From Halarcobacter sp. (GTDB lineage Bacteria; Campylobacterota; Campylobacteria; Campylobacterales; Arcobacteraceae): a stretch of 64,000 nucleotides of DNA. The DNA lies in contig NZ_OY780939.1 of the NCBI RefSeq assembly GCF_963675975.1, positions 930,001-994,000 on the forward strand, read 5' to 3'. This document shows, piece by piece, positions 36,424-43,553 of the stretch (position 1 is its first letter; every line of letters starts with the position of its first letter). The notes below the pieces were generated by a model. The model made no database searches, was not told the DNA's origin, and was given only the letters and a program-made list of their open reading frames with translations. Both the position numbers and the translations under genes were made by a program.

Positions 36424-37380
36424 TTAAACTCTAGCTTCTTCTCTTCTTTGAAGATATTCCCAGTTTTTGTCAACTCTTCTTTGCCACTCTTCAATGATAT
36501 GCTCATTTTCAGGTTTAAACAAGTGTTTAAATCTTGGTTGGAAAGCTAAATAATCCCTAACTGGAACTATATTTTTTGGTCTGTAAGTGATATTTAATTC
36601 TGTTCCATCAACTATTTCATAAAGTGGAAATACAAGTGAATCAACAGCTAAATCAGAAGCTTCAATTGTTTCATGTGGTTGGAATTTCCACTCAGTTGTA
36701 CAAGCAGACATTGCATTTATAAATACTGGTCCTTTTGTATCAAAACCTTTTTGGATTTTTTTAACCATATCTTTCCATTTATTTGGAGCAACTTGTGCCA
36801 CATAAGGTGAGCCATGTGCTGCCATAATTTGAAGCATATCTTTTTTAACTTGCTTTTCACCATATGAAGTTGAACCAGCAGGTGCAGTAGTAGTTGATGC
36901 TCCAATAGGAGTAGAAGATGATCTTTGACCACCTGTATTTGCATAAACTTCATTGTCTAAACAAACATACATCATATCATGACCTCTTTCAAAACATCCA
37001 GATATCCATTGAAAACCAATATCATATGTAGCACCATCTCCACCAAAAGCAACAAATTTTGGCTCAGGAGTATCAGCACTAATTCTTCCTTTGTTTCTTA
37101 AAGCTTTGTTCATAGCTTCAGCTCCTGCAATTGCAGTAGAAGCATTTTCAAATCCAATATGAATCCAAGAACAATCCCAAGATGTATGTGGATATATTGC
37201 TGTACATACTTCTAAACAACCAGTTGCAGCAGATACTACAAGATTATCATTTGTAGCATTTAAAACCTCTCTTACTATAATAGAGTGGGCACAACCTGGA
37301 CATAAAACGTGAGAACCCTCAAATCTTTCAGCAGCAGTTGAAAATGTTTTTAAGTTTTTAATTACTTTTTGATTACTCAT
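36424..37380 (-). CDS. porB: Pyruvate:ferredoxin oxidoreductase beta subunit
   Basis: The thiamine-diphosphate subunit of the four-part enzyme that oxidises pyruvate to acetyl-CoA and reduces ferredoxin or flavodoxin. 318 residues. GSHVLCPGCAHS near residue 24 starts the TPP-binding domain, VAFGGDGATYDIGFQW near residue 109 is the TPP/Mg motif, and LDNEVYANTGGQRSSSTP is the adjoining conserved loop. Four cysteines are positioned to hold the proximal Fe-S cluster. Last gene of porCDAB. Confidence 0.95.
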   Translation of the reverse strand: MSNQKVIKNLKTFSTAAERFEGSHVLCPGCAHSIIVREVLNATNDNLVVSAATGCLEVCTAIYPHTSWDCSWIHIGFENASTAIAGAEAMNKALRNKGRISADTPEPKFVAFGGDGATYDIGFQWISGCFERGHDMMYVCLDNEVYANTGGQRSSSTPIGASTTTAPAGSTSYGEKQVKKDMLQIMAAHGSPYVAQVAPNKWKDMVKKIQKGFDTKGPVFINAMSACTTEWKFQPHETIEASDLAVDSLVFPLYEIVDGTELNITYRPKNIVPVRDYLAFQPRFKHLFKPENEHIIEEWQRRVDKNWEYLQRREEARV

Positions 37381-37389
37381 ATCTCTTCC

Positions 37390-38616
37390 TTACAGCTCAT
37401 AAAAGCTTAGTTCTGGTCCTCTAACTCCGTGAAGTCTTTGGATCTTTCCAGTTAATTTACCATTTTTTGCATCACTGTCTAAATTAGTAAAAATTTCTTT
37501 TAACTCATTTACAGTAATATCTCTACCCCCAAGTCCATAAATTAGGTTTCTAAGTACTGGTCTAGCAGGAGTGTTAAATAGGGCACCAGCAACTTCATTA
37601 TATAAAGCTCCAACAGTTCCACCAGGAGCTGATCTATCCATACATGCAAGTGCTTTTACATTTTGTAGTTTTTGTGCTAATTGAACTAATGGAAAAGGTC
37701 TAAATAATCTAGGTGCAATAACTCCAGCTTTAATCCCTTGTTCTCTTAATTCATCAGCTGCAATTGTTGCTGTTTCATAAGTTGTACCTAAACAAACAAT
37801 AGCCACATCAGCATCATCCATTTTATGTGTTTCAACTATATTGTATTCTCTTCCAGTTAACTCTTTAAACTCTTTAAATACCTCTTCAACTACAGGTAAT
37901 GAACCTTGAAGGGCTGCATGCTGTTTTGCTTTATGTTCAAAATGCCAATCATGTTCTGTTTGAACACCATGTGTAACAGGTTTTGAAAAATCTAACATTG
38001 CATTAACTTGTACATAATCACCAACAAAGTTATATGCATCTTTATCAGAAAGTGGTCTAACTGTTTGGGCTGTGTGTGAAGTCAAAAATCCATCTTGATT
38101 AGAAATAACAGGAAGTCTAACATCTTTGTGTTCACCAATTTTAAACGACATAAGTGTTAAATCATATGCATCTTGCGCATTAAATGAATCAAGTTGGATC
38201 CAACCAGAATCCCTAGTAAGATACATATCTGAGTGGTCACCATTTACATTTAGGGGAGCAGCAAGTGCTCTATTTACTAAACATAATACAGCTGGTAATC
38301 TCATCCCTGCACATTGATATAATACTTCAACCATAAGTGCACAACCTTGTGAAGATGTTGCAGTTGCCACTCTTCCTCCAGCTGCAGCAGCACCAACACA
38401 TGCAGACATTGCAGCGTGTTCTGATTCAACCATTACAAATTCACCATCAACATAACCATTTGCATGCATTGTCGCATAGTTTTCAACTGTATTAGTAGAA
38501 GGGGTAATAGGATAAGCAGCAACTACATCAACACCAGCTTGTCTAAAAGCTTGTGCATTACATGTATTTCCATCCCATACTTCTACAGTATTTAATTCCA
38601 TCTCTTTTCTATTCAT
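37390..38616 (-). CDS. porA: Pyruvate:ferredoxin oxidoreductase alpha subunit
   Basis: A 408-residue subunit with the pyrimidine-binding domain of TPP enzymes (residues about 15-245, opening with WDGNTCNAQAFRQAGVDVVAAYPITPSTN) and the transketolase C-terminal-like domain (about 260-380). ESEHAAMSACVGAAAAGGR carries the conserved catalytic Glu near residue 65. Starts on the last base of the porD gene and is followed by porB after 9 nt. Confidence 0.95.
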   Translation of the reverse strand: MNRKEMELNTVEVWDGNTCNAQAFRQAGVDVVAAYPITPSTNTVENYATMHANGYVDGEFVMVESEHAAMSACVGAAAAGGRVATATSSQGCALMVEVLYQCAGMRLPAVLCLVNRALAAPLNVNGDHSDMYLTRDSGWIQLDSFNAQDAYDLTLMSFKIGEHKDVRLPVISNQDGFLTSHTAQTVRPLSDKDAYNFVGDYVQVNAMLDFSKPVTHGVQTEHDWHFEHKAKQHAALQGSLPVVEEVFKEFKELTGREYNIVETHKMDDADVAIVCLGTTYETATIAADELREQGIKAGVIAPRLFRPFPLVQLAQKLQNVKALACMDRSAPGGTVGALYNEVAGALFNTPARPVLRNLIYGLGGRDITVNELKEIFTNLDSDAKNGKLTGKIQRLHGVRGPELSFYEL

Positions 38617-39029
38617 TACTCTTCACCCTTTTTTTTCTTTTCAGGCCACTTTGTAAGTGCTTCTTCATTTTTTTCTGTTTCATTAAACATTAATAATGAT
38701 TTTGGATTTGTTGGACACACTTCTACACAGATACCACAACCTTTGCAGTGGTCATAATCAACACCAACCATCTCTTTGTTTCTTGAGATAATTGCCGTAT
38801 CTGGACAGAATAACCAACAGTTTTGACAGTCAATACATAATTCACTATTCCATACTGGCTTAAAAACTCTCCAATCTCCAACATAAGCATTTTTTGAATT
38901 TGTTTCAGCATAAATTCTATCTTCAGGCTGAGTTTCACTCATTTGATAATCTACATTAGCATCAAATGCATATAAAGCAGCACCAGGTACTAATTCATCC
39001 CATCCCATCTCTTTTATTGATTTGCTCAT
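38616..39029 (-). CDS. porD: Pyruvate:ferredoxin oxidoreductase delta subunit (ferredoxin-like)
   Basis: A 137-residue subunit that carries two 4Fe-4S clusters and passes electrons from the TPP site. The cluster motifs are Cys65/68/71/75 (CIDCQNCWLFC) and Cys95/98/101/105 (CKGCGICVEVC), each followed by Pro. The N-terminal 60 residues form the usual lead segment of PorD. Overlaps porA by 1 nt and follows porC by 8 nt. Confidence 0.95.
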   Translation of the reverse strand: MSKSIKEMGWDELVPGAALYAFDANVDYQMSETQPEDRIYAETNSKNAYVGDWRVFKPVWNSELCIDCQNCWLFCPDTAIISRNKEMVGVDYDHCKGCGICVEVCPTNPKSLLMFNETEKNEEALTKWPEKKKKGEE

Positions 39030-39037
39030 TGTATCTC

Positions 39038-39601
39038 CTAATGTACTTCGTTATATGCTCTTTGAATAGCAATCATATTTGCATCGATTACTTTTTGAGG
39101 CAGTTTTTTTAGTACTTTTTTCATTGCATTTTGAAAATACTCAAGTTCAAACATTCCACTTATTTTCATAAAAGCACCAAGCATTGGAGTATTTGGAATT
39201 GGTCTTCCAATTGTTTCTTGAGATATTTTTAAACAATCTAAAGTATATGTTCTTTCTTCTCTTCCTTTAAGTGCAGGTACTAACTCAATCAGCTCTTGTT
39301 TTGTTAAGTGTGTAGTTATAATATATTGCGTTTTTTCAGTCTCGTGTGCAGTAAAATCATCTGTAAAGGCTAACGCAGGATCTAGTATAAATACATAATC
39401 AGGGTGCATAAACTTTTCATGGTTTATAATTTGTTTATTATCAATTCTATTATATGCAGTCATTGATGCACCTCTTTTTGCAGAACCATAGAATGCAAAA
39501 GCTTGTACCTCTTTACCTGTTTCAGCCACAACAGAACCAAGTCCTTTTGCACCTGTAACAGCACCTTGACCAGCACGGCTGTGCCATCTAATTTCTAGCA
39601 T
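39038..39601 (-). CDS. porC: Pyruvate:ferredoxin oxidoreductase gamma subunit
   Basis: A 187-residue subunit of the 2-oxoacid oxidoreductase gamma family: EIRWHSRAGQGAVTGAKGLGSV at the N-terminus is the family signature, followed by FAFYGSAKRGASMTAYNRI. First gene of the por operon, with a TTTTAGGAGC ribosome site. A promoter with two palindromic sites lies about 130-190 bp upstream. Order porC-porD-porA-porB equals that of Helicobacter pylori, where this enzyme is essential for microaerobic growth. Confidence 0.93.
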   Translation of the reverse strand: MLEIRWHSRAGQGAVTGAKGLGSVVAETGKEVQAFAFYGSAKRGASMTAYNRIDNKQIINHEKFMHPDYVFILDPALAFTDDFTAHETEKTQYIITTHLTKQELIELVPALKGREERTYTLDCLKISQETIGRPIPNTPMLGAFMKISGMFELEYFQNAMKKVLKKLPQKVIDANMIAIQRAYNEVH

Positions 39602-39741
39602 GTTTGCTCCTAAAATTTATCTAAATTAGTAGAGACATCTAATTTGTCCGATTGAAGTTTAGGAAAAGAAAACTTAGCTTAATATTAAAATATGTAATAA
39701 TTATGTATAAATATTTAAAAAAGCCATAATATAGTAAACCT

Positions 39742-39757
39742 ATGAACATATGTCCAT
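39742..39757. promoter_or_regulatory. Palindromic operator 1 in the por promoter region
   Basis: ATGAACATATGTCCAT, one mismatch from the perfect palindrome at 39775. Lies 9 bp upstream of a minus-strand TATATT hexamer, so it would cover the -35 region of the por promoter. Confidence 0.65.
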
Positions 39758-39774
39758 TTTATGGTATCTCTGTT

Positions 39775-39790
39775 ATGAACATATGTTCAT
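39775..39790. promoter_or_regulatory. Palindromic operator 2 in the por promoter region
   Basis: ATGAACATATGTTCAT, a perfect 16-bp palindrome. Its centre is 33 bp from that of operator 1, about three helical turns. The half-site layout TGAAC-N4-GTTCA recalls CRP/FNR-type sites and also the Gram-positive SOS box; the binding protein is unknown. Confidence 0.7.
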
Positions 39791-39950
39791 TTTTATACCT
39801 ATTTTAATAAGTTTTTCTTATGTATTTAAAATTATAAAATGATAATTAATATTGATAATATTATTAAAGAGATTTAAAAATTGTATTTTTATAGTAAGGT
39901 TGTTTAGTTTTGATTATATAAAAGAAAAGGGAGTTTGGAATAAAAAAATA

Positions 39951-39978
39951 GATAGTAAGGTATAAATACCTTACTATC
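39951..39978 (-). terminator. Strong terminator after nifJ
   Basis: Perfect 13-bp arms (39951-39963 and 39966-39978) with a 2-nt loop, starting 2 nt after the nifJ stop; on the minus strand it is followed by TATTTTTTTATT. It should isolate nifJ from the por operon. Confidence 0.92.
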
Positions 39979-39980
39979 TT

Positions 39981-42900
39981 TTATGCATCTTCTAATTCGT
40001 CAGAATAATCAGCTGCTGCCATTCTAGATAATTGTCTATATCTATATTGTGCATCTTTTTTATTTTGTGCTAATAAGAAATCTGCTTGTTCTGGATTAAG
40101 TTTTTTAAGAGATCTATATCTGTTCTCTTTCATTAGGAATTCATCATAAACATCCCAATTTGGTTTTTTACCAGAAATTTTAATTGGATTTTTACCCTCT
40201 TCAATTTTTCTTGGATCGAAAGTATAAATTGGCCAATAACCACAATCTGTAGCTAATTGTCCATGTTCAACTGATTTCATTAAACCACCTTGGATACCAT
40301 GGGCAATACAAGGAGAGTAAGCAATAATTAATGATGGTCCATCATACTCTTCTGCTTCTTTCATAGCTTGAACGGCATGTTTTTGATTTGCTCTTGAGTT
40401 GATTTGTGCTACAAAGATGTTTCCATAAGTCATAGAGATATAACCTAAATCTTTTTTAGCATTTGGTTTACCATCATTTGTAAAGTCTGCAATCGAACCT
40501 GTTCTTGCTGCTTTTGAAGATTGACCACCAGTATTAGAATAAACTTCTGTATCAACAACTAACATATTTACATTTTCACCAGTTGAAAGTACGTGATCTA
40601 GTCCACCATAACCAATATCATAGGCCCAACCATCTCCACCAATCATCCATTGAGATTTTCTTACTATGTATTTTTTAAGAGATAATAGAACTTTTACACC
40701 TGGTAAATCTTGATTTTGTTCTAGTTGAGGAACAAGTTTATCTCTGATTTCTTGAGTTTTAGCTCCATTACTTCTATTTTCTAACCATTCTTTATAAAGA
40801 CCTTTTAGAGGATTAGTTACCTCTTCCATTGTCTCTTTCATAATTGTACCAATTCTATTTCTAATAGTTTCATTTGCTGCGTGCATACCATAACCAAACT
40901 CTGCTGCATCTTCAAATAATGAGTTAGCCCATGCTGGACCTTCCCCTTTTGCATTTTTAGTAAATGGTGTAGATGGTGCTGATGCTGAATAAATAGATGA
41001 GCATCCAGTTGCATTAGAAACCATCATTCTATCTCCAAATAGTTGAGTAGCTAAGGTGATATATGGAGTTTCACCACAACCTGGACATGCCGAGTGGAAC
41101 TCAAATAATGGTTGAGCAAATTGAGAACCTTGAACTGTGTCTGCTTTAACTAAATGTTCTTTATAAGATACATCATTAAATAAGTAGTCTGCATTTTCTT
41201 GTTCATTGTTTTCATCCTCAACTTCATATGGAACCATTTTAAGAGATTTTTCTTTTGTAGGACAAATGTCAACACAAACATTACATCCAGTACAGTCCAT
41301 AATTGATACTTGAATTTTGTATTTAAGTCCTTGGTCTTTTGTTCCTTTTGCTTTTGAATCAAGAGAGTGAGTTTTTACTCCATCTGGTGCTTTTTCAAAC
41401 TCTTCTTCATCCATTAAAAATGGTCTAATAACTGCATGTGGGCACTCAAATGCACATTGGTTACATTGGATACATGTATCTTCATTCCATTGAGGTACCA
41501 TTGTAGCAATAGATCTTTTTTCGTATTTAGTAGAACCATTCTCAAATGTTCCACCTTCCATACCAAGGTTAACTACAGAAGATACAGGAATCTCGTCCCC
41601 TTTTGCTGCATTTACAACTTTAGCAAAGTTTTCAACATATTCACTACCTTTGTACTTAGATTGTACAACTAGTTTTCCACCCTCTAAGTTTGACCATGCT
41701 TCATCAACTGGAACTTGAACTAATCCCTCTTCACCTGAATCAATAGCTAAATAGTTCATTCTAACTATCTCTTCACCTTTATTTCCATAAGCTTTTTCTG
41801 CATACTCTTTCATGTATGTTTTTGCTTCTTCATAAGGGATAATATCTGCAAGTTTAAAGAAAGCAGCCTGCATAATAGTATTTGTTCTATTACCAAGTCC
41901 AATATCTCTTGCTAGTTTAGTAGCATTGATGATATAAAAATTAACTTTTTTATCTGCAAGTATTTTCTTAACTCTGTCAGGGATTCTTTGAACTATCTCT
42001 TCAGCTGAATATATTGAGTTAAGTAAGAAAGTTCCACCATCTTTGATTTTATCTATAACTTCATATTGTTCTAAATAAACCTCTTTTGAACAGGCAACAA
42101 ATCCTGGATTTGATACAAGATACGTTGATCTAATTGGATTTTTACTAAATCTTAAGTGTGATCTTGTGTATCCACCAGATTTTTTTGAATCATATGCAAA
42201 GTATGCTTGAGCATAAAGATCTGTTTTATCCCCAATAATTTTAACTGAATTTTTATTAGCTCCAACAGTACCATCTGCACCTAATCCATAGAATAGACAC
42301 TCGTTTACATCTTCAACAACAGATACATTTTCTCCTACATCAATAGAAGTAAATGTAACATCATCATTTATACCAACAGTAAAGTGGTTTTTAGAGTTAT
42401 CTGCTGCTAAATTATCATATAGAGCTATAATTTGATTTGGTGGAACATCTTTTGAAGATAACCCGTATCTACCACCAATAATTTTTGGTTTCTTTTCTTC
42501 ATCATAGAATACAGCTTTTACATCAAGATATAATGGTTCACCTAAACTTCCTGGCTCTTTTGTTCTATCTATAACACAGATGTTTTCAACACTGTCAGGT
42601 AAAGCATCTAAAAAGTATTTTGTACTAAATGGTCTATATAAATGAACAGTTAGAAGTCCTACTTTTCTTCCTTGTGTTTCTCTTAAAAAGTCAACAGTTT
42701 CTCTAATAGTTTCATTTACAGAACCCATAGCAACAATAACATCTGTAGCTTCAGGGTCACCATAATATGTAAATGGAGCATAATTTCTACCAGTTACTTT
42801 TGAAATCTCTTGCATATATTCATTTACAATATCAGGAACTGCATCATAAAATTTATTTGATGCTTCTCTTCCTTGGAAATAAATATCATCATTTTGTGCT

Positions 42901-43553
42901 GTACCTCTTGTGATAGGTGATTCTGGATTTAAAGATGTGTCTCTAAACTTTTGAACAGCATCATAATCTATAAGTCTGTCAAAAACATCATAATCCATAA
43001 CTTCAACTTTGTTTATTTCATGTGAAGTTCTAAATCCATCAAAGAAATGTAAGAAAGGAACTCTTCCTTTGATTGCTGCAAGGTGTGCAACACCACCAAT
43101 ATCCATAACTTCTTGCACAGAACCAGTTGCAAGCATAGCAAAACCAGTTGCTCTTGCACTCATAACATCTTGATGGTCACCAAAGATTGAAAGTGCATGT
43201 GCTGCTAAAGCTCTAGCTGATACATGGATAACCCCAGGTAATAATTGTCCAGCAACTTTATACATATTAGGAATTTTAAGAAGTAAACCTTGTGATGCTG
43301 TATAAGTTGTTGTTAAAGCACCAGCTTGCAGTGAACCGTGGAATGTTCCAGCTGCACCAGCTTCACTTTGCATCTCAATAACTTTTACAGTTGAACCAAA
43401 TAAATTCTTTTTGCCTTGAGTTGCCCATTTTTCAGTATTATCACCCATTTGTGACGATGGAGTAATAGGATAAACACCAGCAACTTCTGTAAATGCATAA
43501 GATACATATGAAGCAGCTTCATTCCCATCCATAGTAGCAAATTTTTTTGTCAT
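39981..43553 (-). CDS. nifJ: Single-chain pyruvate:ferredoxin (flavodoxin) oxidoreductase
   Basis: A 1190-residue all-in-one pyruvate oxidoreductase. Order of domains: pyrimidine-binding (residues about 1-255, YPITPSSQMGDNTEKWA), transketolase-C-like (about 265-400), gamma-type (about 415-630, GLGADGTVGANKNSVKII), two-cluster ferredoxin (CIQCNQCAFECP near 691 and CTGCNVCVDICP near 751) and TPP-binding (HSACPGCGETPY near 820, MIGGDGWAYDIGYGGLDHV near 970). All cofactor motifs are intact. It sits directly upstream of the separate four-subunit enzyme but has its own promoter and terminator. An AAAGGG ribosome site precedes the ATG. Confidence 0.97.
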   Translation of the reverse strand: MTKKFATMDGNEAASYVSYAFTEVAGVYPITPSSQMGDNTEKWATQGKKNLFGSTVKVIEMQSEAGAAGTFHGSLQAGALTTTYTASQGLLLKIPNMYKVAGQLLPGVIHVSARALAAHALSIFGDHQDVMSARATGFAMLATGSVQEVMDIGGVAHLAAIKGRVPFLHFFDGFRTSHEINKVEVMDYDVFDRLIDYDAVQKFRDTSLNPESPITRGTAQNDDIYFQGREASNKFYDAVPDIVNEYMQEISKVTGRNYAPFTYYGDPEATDVIVAMGSVNETIRETVDFLRETQGRKVGLLTVHLYRPFSTKYFLDALPDSVENICVIDRTKEPGSLGEPLYLDVKAVFYDEEKKPKIIGGRYGLSSKDVPPNQIIALYDNLAADNSKNHFTVGINDDVTFTSIDVGENVSVVEDVNECLFYGLGADGTVGANKNSVKIIGDKTDLYAQAYFAYDSKKSGGYTRSHLRFSKNPIRSTYLVSNPGFVACSKEVYLEQYEVIDKIKDGGTFLLNSIYSAEEIVQRIPDRVKKILADKKVNFYIINATKLARDIGLGNRTNTIMQAAFFKLADIIPYEEAKTYMKEYAEKAYGNKGEEIVRMNYLAIDSGEEGLVQVPVDEAWSNLEGGKLVVQSKYKGSEYVENFAKVVNAAKGDEIPVSSVVNLGMEGGTFENGSTKYEKRSIATMVPQWNEDTCIQCNQCAFECPHAVIRPFLMDEEEFEKAPDGVKTHSLDSKAKGTKDQGLKYKIQVSIMDCTGCNVCVDICPTKEKSLKMVPYEVEDENNEQENADYLFNDVSYKEHLVKADTVQGSQFAQPLFEFHSACPGCGETPYITLATQLFGDRMMVSNATGCSSIYSASAPSTPFTKNAKGEGPAWANSLFEDAAEFGYGMHAANETIRNRIGTIMKETMEEVTNPLKGLYKEWLENRSNGAKTQEIRDKLVPQLEQNQDLPGVKVLLSLKKYIVRKSQWMIGGDGWAYDIGYGGLDHVLSTGENVNMLVVDTEVYSNTGGQSSKAARTGSIADFTNDGKPNAKKDLGYISMTYGNIFVAQINSRANQKHAVQAMKEAEEYDGPSLIIAYSPCIAHGIQGGLMKSVEHGQLATDCGYWPIYTFDPRKIEEGKNPIKISGKKPNWDVYDEFLMKENRYRSLKKLNPEQADFLLAQNKKDAQYRYRQLSRMAAADYSDELEDA

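Follow-up and report, generated by a model that had tools for sequence, protein, structure and literature searches.

Twin palindromes before the por operon of a Halarcobacter species are predicted operators of a DUF134 protein, with further boxes at aceEF-lpd, suf and its own gene

IscR and SufR are autoregulated, Fe-S-responsive regulators of suf and of Fe-S-dependent metabolism, and PdhR, a GntR-family protein of Enterobacteria, controls pyruvate dehydrogenase according to metabolic state. The DUF134 protein considered here is predicted to resemble the former in autoregulation and in the control of suf and Fe-S-dependent metabolism, and the latter in the control of pyruvate dehydrogenase. 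However, IscR and SufR belong to DNA-binding protein families other than DUF134, in which Fe-S sensing is a prediction, whereas PdhR is unrelated in both protein family and operator, and the predicted DUF134 regulon also contains suf and por. Two further described systems correspond to the two halves of the DUF134 protein. Bacillus subtilis DeoR, of the SorC family, contacts TTGAACA half-sites in the operator ATTGAACAAAATTTCAAT, in which several half-sites are spread over 39 bp, and its residues R34 and R39 contact bases (PMC11229326). Nitro_FeMo-Co domains bind Fe-S or Mo-Cu sulphide clusters in MrpORP/ORP; MrpORP, for which a CxHFGHC motif is described, acts in Fe-S biogenesis (PMC6345978).

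The palindromes lie in a window of 64,000 nucleotides (positions 930,001 to 994,000 of contig NZ_OY780939.1). Re-reading of the sequence confirmed the original prediction of twin 16-mers before porCDAB, 33 bp apart from centre to centre. Both fall inside the 379-bp gap between nifJ and porC, which are both on the minus strand. The features of this region are as follows.

39981..43553, minus strand: nifJ, single-chain pyruvate:ferredoxin/flavodoxin oxidoreductase (named by sequence reading)
39950..39979, minus strand: strong intrinsic terminator of nifJ (z -5.25)
39775..39790: box A, porC-distal, ATGAACATATGTTCAT, a perfect palindrome; predicted DUF134 operator
Between box A and box B: CATAAAAT, an alternative por -10 (from the alignment)
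39742..39757: box B, porC-proximal, ATGAACATATGTCCAT with one mismatch; predicted DUF134 operator, kept in 4/4 por-bearing genus members
39728..39756, minus strand: possible por promoter, TGGACA (within box B), a 17-nucleotide spacer and TATATT (weak consensus scan, with alignment)
39038..39601, minus strand: porC, pyruvate:ferredoxin oxidoreductase gamma subunit (Pfam POR, E 1.3e-35)
38616..39029, minus strand: ORF, putative porD, 4Fe-4S delta subunit (named by sequence reading)
37390..38616, minus strand: ORF, putative porA, alpha subunit (named by sequence reading)
36424..37380, minus strand: ORF, putative porB, beta subunit (named by sequence reading)

Because the nifJ terminator separates the boxes from nifJ, the boxes are part of the por promoter region. 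The palindromes themselves were rejected as a terminator, since the actual one is found some 160 bp ahead of box A, on its upstream side with respect to transcription. The promoter consensus scan is weak, with 6 matches found against 3.8 expected from shuffling.

The boxes are rare and sharply confined. The 14-mer TGAACATATGTTCA would be expected by chance in 0.05 exact copies in the 3.27-Mb genome; two are present, one at por and one in the lplA/aceE gap, with none for the reversed control, and the one-mismatch copy at por (box B) comes in addition. The wider pattern TGRRCATATG, in genome-wide work that consisted of pattern searches plus chosen stretches, gave 28 rows against 2 for its reversed control. 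Ten of these rows represent seven boxes at four promoters, and the other 18 all lie within ORFs, so that intergenic sites occur exclusively before por (two boxes), aceE of the pyruvate dehydrogenase genes aceEF-lpd (two), the DUF134 gene (two) and sufB (one). Pairs of CATATG spaced N16-34 number five in the genome, those at por and at the DUF134 gene being two of them. A chance origin was rejected on the rarity of TGAACATATGTTCA, the reversed controls, the shuffles and the cross-phylum counts given below, and the genome-wide distribution is non-random. No box was found upstream of nifJ, and NifJ was rejected as a co-target. It had been proposed that a dedicated regulator chooses between the two pyruvate oxidoreductases. 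Control of pyruvate oxidation through twin operators is upheld, with DUF134 as the predicted binder, but the pair concerned is Por and pyruvate dehydrogenase rather than Por and NifJ: with no box before nifJ, the shared control would embrace Por, pyruvate dehydrogenase (aceE) and suf.

The search for the binder was led to DUF134 genes by exact box copies in genomes beyond the genus. The genome holds a single DUF134 (PF02001/UPF0251) gene, which lies outside the window (genome position 3080495-3081085; L086:7496-8086), encodes 196 aa and carries twin boxes upstream, 30 bp apart; its product scores 58.6-60.6 bits against PF02001, above the curated cut-off of 27. This lead was found post hoc in a handful of loci, and the next test was made on 80 new loci from many phyla. 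Among the Campylobacterota, 44/45 DUF134 genes have an upstream box with up to three mismatches (4.8% in shuffles) and 30/45 have one with up to two (0.3%). In other phyla, CATATG occurs within 130 bp upstream of 32/52 DUF134 genes, compared with 2.7 expected, and has palindromic flanks at 31 of the 52, compared with 0.7 expected; about 40% of DUF134 genes in these phyla have no upstream CATATG box. The flanks differ by lineage (TGAA, TGAG, TTAG or TGAT).

ArsR/SmtB-type repressors use TGAA-N6-TTCA palindromes, and one of these or another winged-helix repressor could in principle bind the boxes, with the DUF134 gene merely a target. In one other genome (L290) an ArsR-type gene has the identical palindrome, as the exact ATATGAACATATGTTCATAT, directly upstream; presence of the box is therefore not confined to DUF134. 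An ArsR-like gene was looked for beside the boxes of the present genome and none was seen, and the box accompanies DUF134 genes in many phyla and varies in step with the recognition helix of DUF134, which leaves such a binder quite unlikely.

Several other occurrences of the box were recorded. In L290 (1490-1525) the palindrome, extended to ATATGAACATATGTTCATAT, precedes both the ArsR-type gene and a cation-ATPase-like gene. Genome G043 has a second DUF134 gene, which diverges from a cydA-like gene for a cytochrome bd oxidase (L100/L032), with one exact box and one further box in the gap between them. At L297:1501-1706 and L298:1501-1680 an exact box directly precedes the gene of a small Cys-rich protein (MACNNSTCIKSTECERYDLF...GCKKF), which in L297 is followed by a Nitro_FeMo-Co-like gene.

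That the DUF134 protein itself reads the box is suggested by covariation between protein and DNA. The residue after TF in the recognition motif SRxTFxR varies together with the base immediately 5' of CATATG (Fisher 1.5e-16, uncorrected for relatedness). A Gly at this position mostly goes with G or T in front of CATATG (half-sites not-A:A, 27:5), and Ser, Ala or Thr with A (1:55). Outside the Campylobacterota alone the association persists (Fisher 4e-9, again uncorrected for relatedness). On the tree there are several concordant switches, with Fitch counts of 5 residue and 4 base changes, and the exceptions are L033 and L217. The covariation is evidence that DUF134 would read the box, with a real weight lowered by relatedness.

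A mode of recognition is suggested by comparison with DeoR. The best PDB relative of the DUF134 profile is the DNA-binding domain of B. subtilis DeoR (E 2e-5). A modelled short DUF134 relative (pLDDT 85; not the protein of this bacterium) has DeoR-operator complexes as its top Foldseek matches and superposes on operator-bound DeoR at 0.7 A over 41 columns; no Foldseek match with this model falls below E 0.001, and domains of sigma-factor region 4 reach similar scores. DeoR and DUF134 have in common the type of HTH with an SRxTxSR recognition helix, and the DeoR operator and the present boxes both have the half-site TTGAACA in the spacing TTGAA-N6-TTCAA. DeoR R34 and R39 would correspond to the invariant DUF134 residues R61 and R66, the offset in numbering being counted along the alignment. 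The likeness ends at the partner domain, which is Nitro_FeMo-Co rather than the SorC effector domain: no C-terminal sugar-phosphate effector-binding domain was found in the DUF134 protein of this genome, for which Pfam gives DUF134 alone (196 aa). The operators differ too, in that the centre CATATG is conserved in the present boxes whereas DeoR has a loose linker.

The conserved centre also bears on two readings put forward earlier. The palindrome formally matches the 5-4-5 layout of CRP/FNR-type sites, and GAAC-N4-GTTC is likewise the SOS box of Gram-positive LexA (DinR). In the alignments, conservation spans the whole CATATG centre, unlike an N4 spacer; no LexA DNA-binding domain was found in the genome at E 0.01; and the sites stand at genes of metabolism and of Fe-S assembly rather than of the SOS response. 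The SOS reading was abandoned on the missing LexA domain and on the position of the remaining sites away from SOS genes. The CRP/FNR layout appears coincidental, the best-supported binder being the DUF134 HTH, a relative of DeoR and sigma region 4. A LexA-like box or a site for a CRP/FNR paralogue is thus scarcely credible. Very probably, the binder of the por boxes is the DUF134 protein.

Conservation among related genomes suggests that the predicted regulon was assembled at different times. The original prediction had named the region upstream of porC in related genomes as a place to check, and the palindromes are indeed kept there: PorC is present in only 4/16 genus genomes, and all four carry the twin boxes, at spacings of 33, 33, 33 and 32 bp. 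No boxes were found at the por operons of sister genera, which suggests that the por box probably arose within the genus; it was rejected as an ancestral feature, and control of por by the boxes looks recent. The aceE boxes are, as judged by their distribution, older. Their CATATG cores lie exactly 58 bp apart in 18/18 genomes (16 of the genus and 2 of sister genus g15), all of which are DUF134-positive, and 0/6 DUF134-less genomes with aceE have them. They are also absent from five other DUF134-bearing genomes (G020, G023, G027, G040 and G043), and G024 has a weaker site at aceE. The suf box TTTAATGAACATATGTTA, CATATG core included, is found in 14/15 genus genomes, and none was seen outside the genus. 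Since some DUF134-bearing genera have no box at aceE, por or suf, these members of the regulon are lineage-specific.

The aceE region brings in another candidate binder. The genes lplA-lipA are divergent from the pyruvate dehydrogenase genes, and beside lipA-lplA-aceE stands a gene for an IclR-family protein (L016:5314-6051). IclR regulators can bind pyruvate or glyoxylate, and the synteny with the aceE cluster is conserved in the genus genomes examined, so that this protein might be both binder and pyruvate sensor. Its own divergent promoter has another conserved element, TTTCACAnTGTGAGAAAA, and no good box; it adjoins an hpcH-ligase-maoC operon, its likelier target; and the box occurs with DUF134 genes in unrelated phyla. 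The IclR neighbour was rejected as binder because the box is missing from its own promoter, and a role for it at the boxes is very improbable.

Other conserved elements and gene arrangements were noted around these loci. In the genus, the stretch from the DUF134 box to the start codon of sufB holds a conserved palindrome, AAATAGGAC-N8-GTCCTATTT (L123:6421-6460 and the other sufB loci, L124-L138), which could be a hairpin or a second operator. The hpcH/iclR intergenic region (L016:4946-5313 and homologues) has TGAGAATATGATAGTTTCACAnTGTGAGAAAA, kept in many genus genomes and perhaps a weak DUF134-like box adjoining an IclR operator. Genus member G003 has two extra genes, of 937 and 159 aa, between lipA and iclR (L051:10685-14032). 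In G024 the genes of an AgcS-type symporter and of a thioredoxin reductase have an exact box between them (L017:1501); the homologous gene pair of the present genome has no box between.

The C-terminal half of the DUF134 protein offers a candidate sensor. Profile comparison by hhalign relates it to Nitro_FeMo-Co (PF02579; NifX/MTH1175-type) at 95% (E 4e-8), and PF02579 matches 7/17 DUF134 homologues in Pfam, the best at 3.3e-7; the protein of this genome searched alone gave no Pfam Nitro_FeMo-Co match. MTH1175 and a protein resembling NifB are weak PDB matches of this half. Of the 80 cross-phylum DUF134 loci, 62 have a Nitro_FeMo-Co ORF either nearby or fused, with fusions in Spirochaetes and one Campylobacterota MAG. 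Cys99 is invariant in the DUF134 alignments and the only such Cys; the cluster-binding CxHFGHC motif is absent from them (A1/A3), and HFGHC is present in the Spirochaete fusions. The C-terminal domain family is common to DUF134 and the Desulfovibrio ORP/MrpORP Di-Nase proteins. The latter, however, do not belong to the HTH regulators, and sigma-54 governs their operons; compared with ORP/MrpORP, the Arcobacteraceae-type domain is without CxHFGHC and keeps one invariant Cys. Divergent from the DUF134 gene of this genome is a 112-aa protein (L086:6803-7141, minus strand) with no Pfam match, Nitro_FeMo-Co-like by eye.

Taken together, we estimate a probability of roughly 0.86 that the twin palindromes are two operators of the genome's single DUF134 protein, which would regulate por, aceEF-lpd, suf and itself. 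The supported steps, all read from sequence, are box identity, conservation, association with DUF134 genes, residue-base covariation, HTH homology and domain make-up. In the proposed mechanism, a DUF134 dimer would bind TGAA-CATATG-TTCA through the half-site TTGAAC. The twin-box spacing of 30-33 bp, about three helical turns, suggests that two dimers would sit on one face of the DNA, where they could plausibly cooperate. The protein would regulate its own gene through boxes 30 bp apart, aceEF-lpd through two boxes 58 bp apart, sufBCDSUT through one box, and porCDAB, in species having por, through two boxes spaced 33 bp. Sensing of an Fe-S/metal-sulphide or redox state would fall to the Nitro_FeMo-Co domain, in which Cys99 is invariant. 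The nature of the targets, namely Fe-S assembly, an Fe-S-dependent pyruvate oxidoreductase, pyruvate dehydrogenase and the regulator itself, suggests a response to Fe-S or redox state.

The sign of this control is a separate matter, on which the balance tips towards repression. At aceE, suf and por, the proximal box either abuts a -10-like AAT or covers the -35-like TGGACA, which favours repression of these three from operators on or next to the core promoter. A variant compatible with the core of the explanation, in which DUF134 binds the boxes as an activator, is possible but the more doubtful expectation. In the alignment of the DUF134 gene's own promoter, the boxes are centred near -41.5 and -71.5 relative to a conserved extended -10 (TGnTAAAAT), where activators typically bind; against activation, at aceE, suf and, in one reading, por, the proximal box abutting the -10-like AAT would cover the start site, the -10 calls there being weak.

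No function is given for DUF134 in Pfam or NCBIfam, and no functional study was found in the open-access literature searched, where the word matches read concerned other DUFs (e.g. DUF1349) or a bare mention of UPF0251. What is new is therefore the unassigned family, its unexpected partner domain and the regulon, whereas the HTH regulator and the half-site are familiar. The widespread DUF134 family gains a predicted role as transcription factor and a predicted operator readable across many phyla, together with a recognition rule that links residue to base and a small predicted regulon. More tentatively, DUF134 proteins may form an unnamed, phylum-spanning class of transcription factors that regulate their own genes and respond to Fe-S or metal-sulphide status through a Nitro_FeMo-Co domain, fused or as a partner; in this genus, one of them may work as a switch of the IscR kind, coupling suf to the balance of oxygen-tolerant pyruvate dehydrogenase against Fe-S-dependent Por. 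The predicted regulon also offers a candidate connection from Fe-S supply to the route by which pyruvate is oxidised, in bacteria without prior assigned control of these genes.
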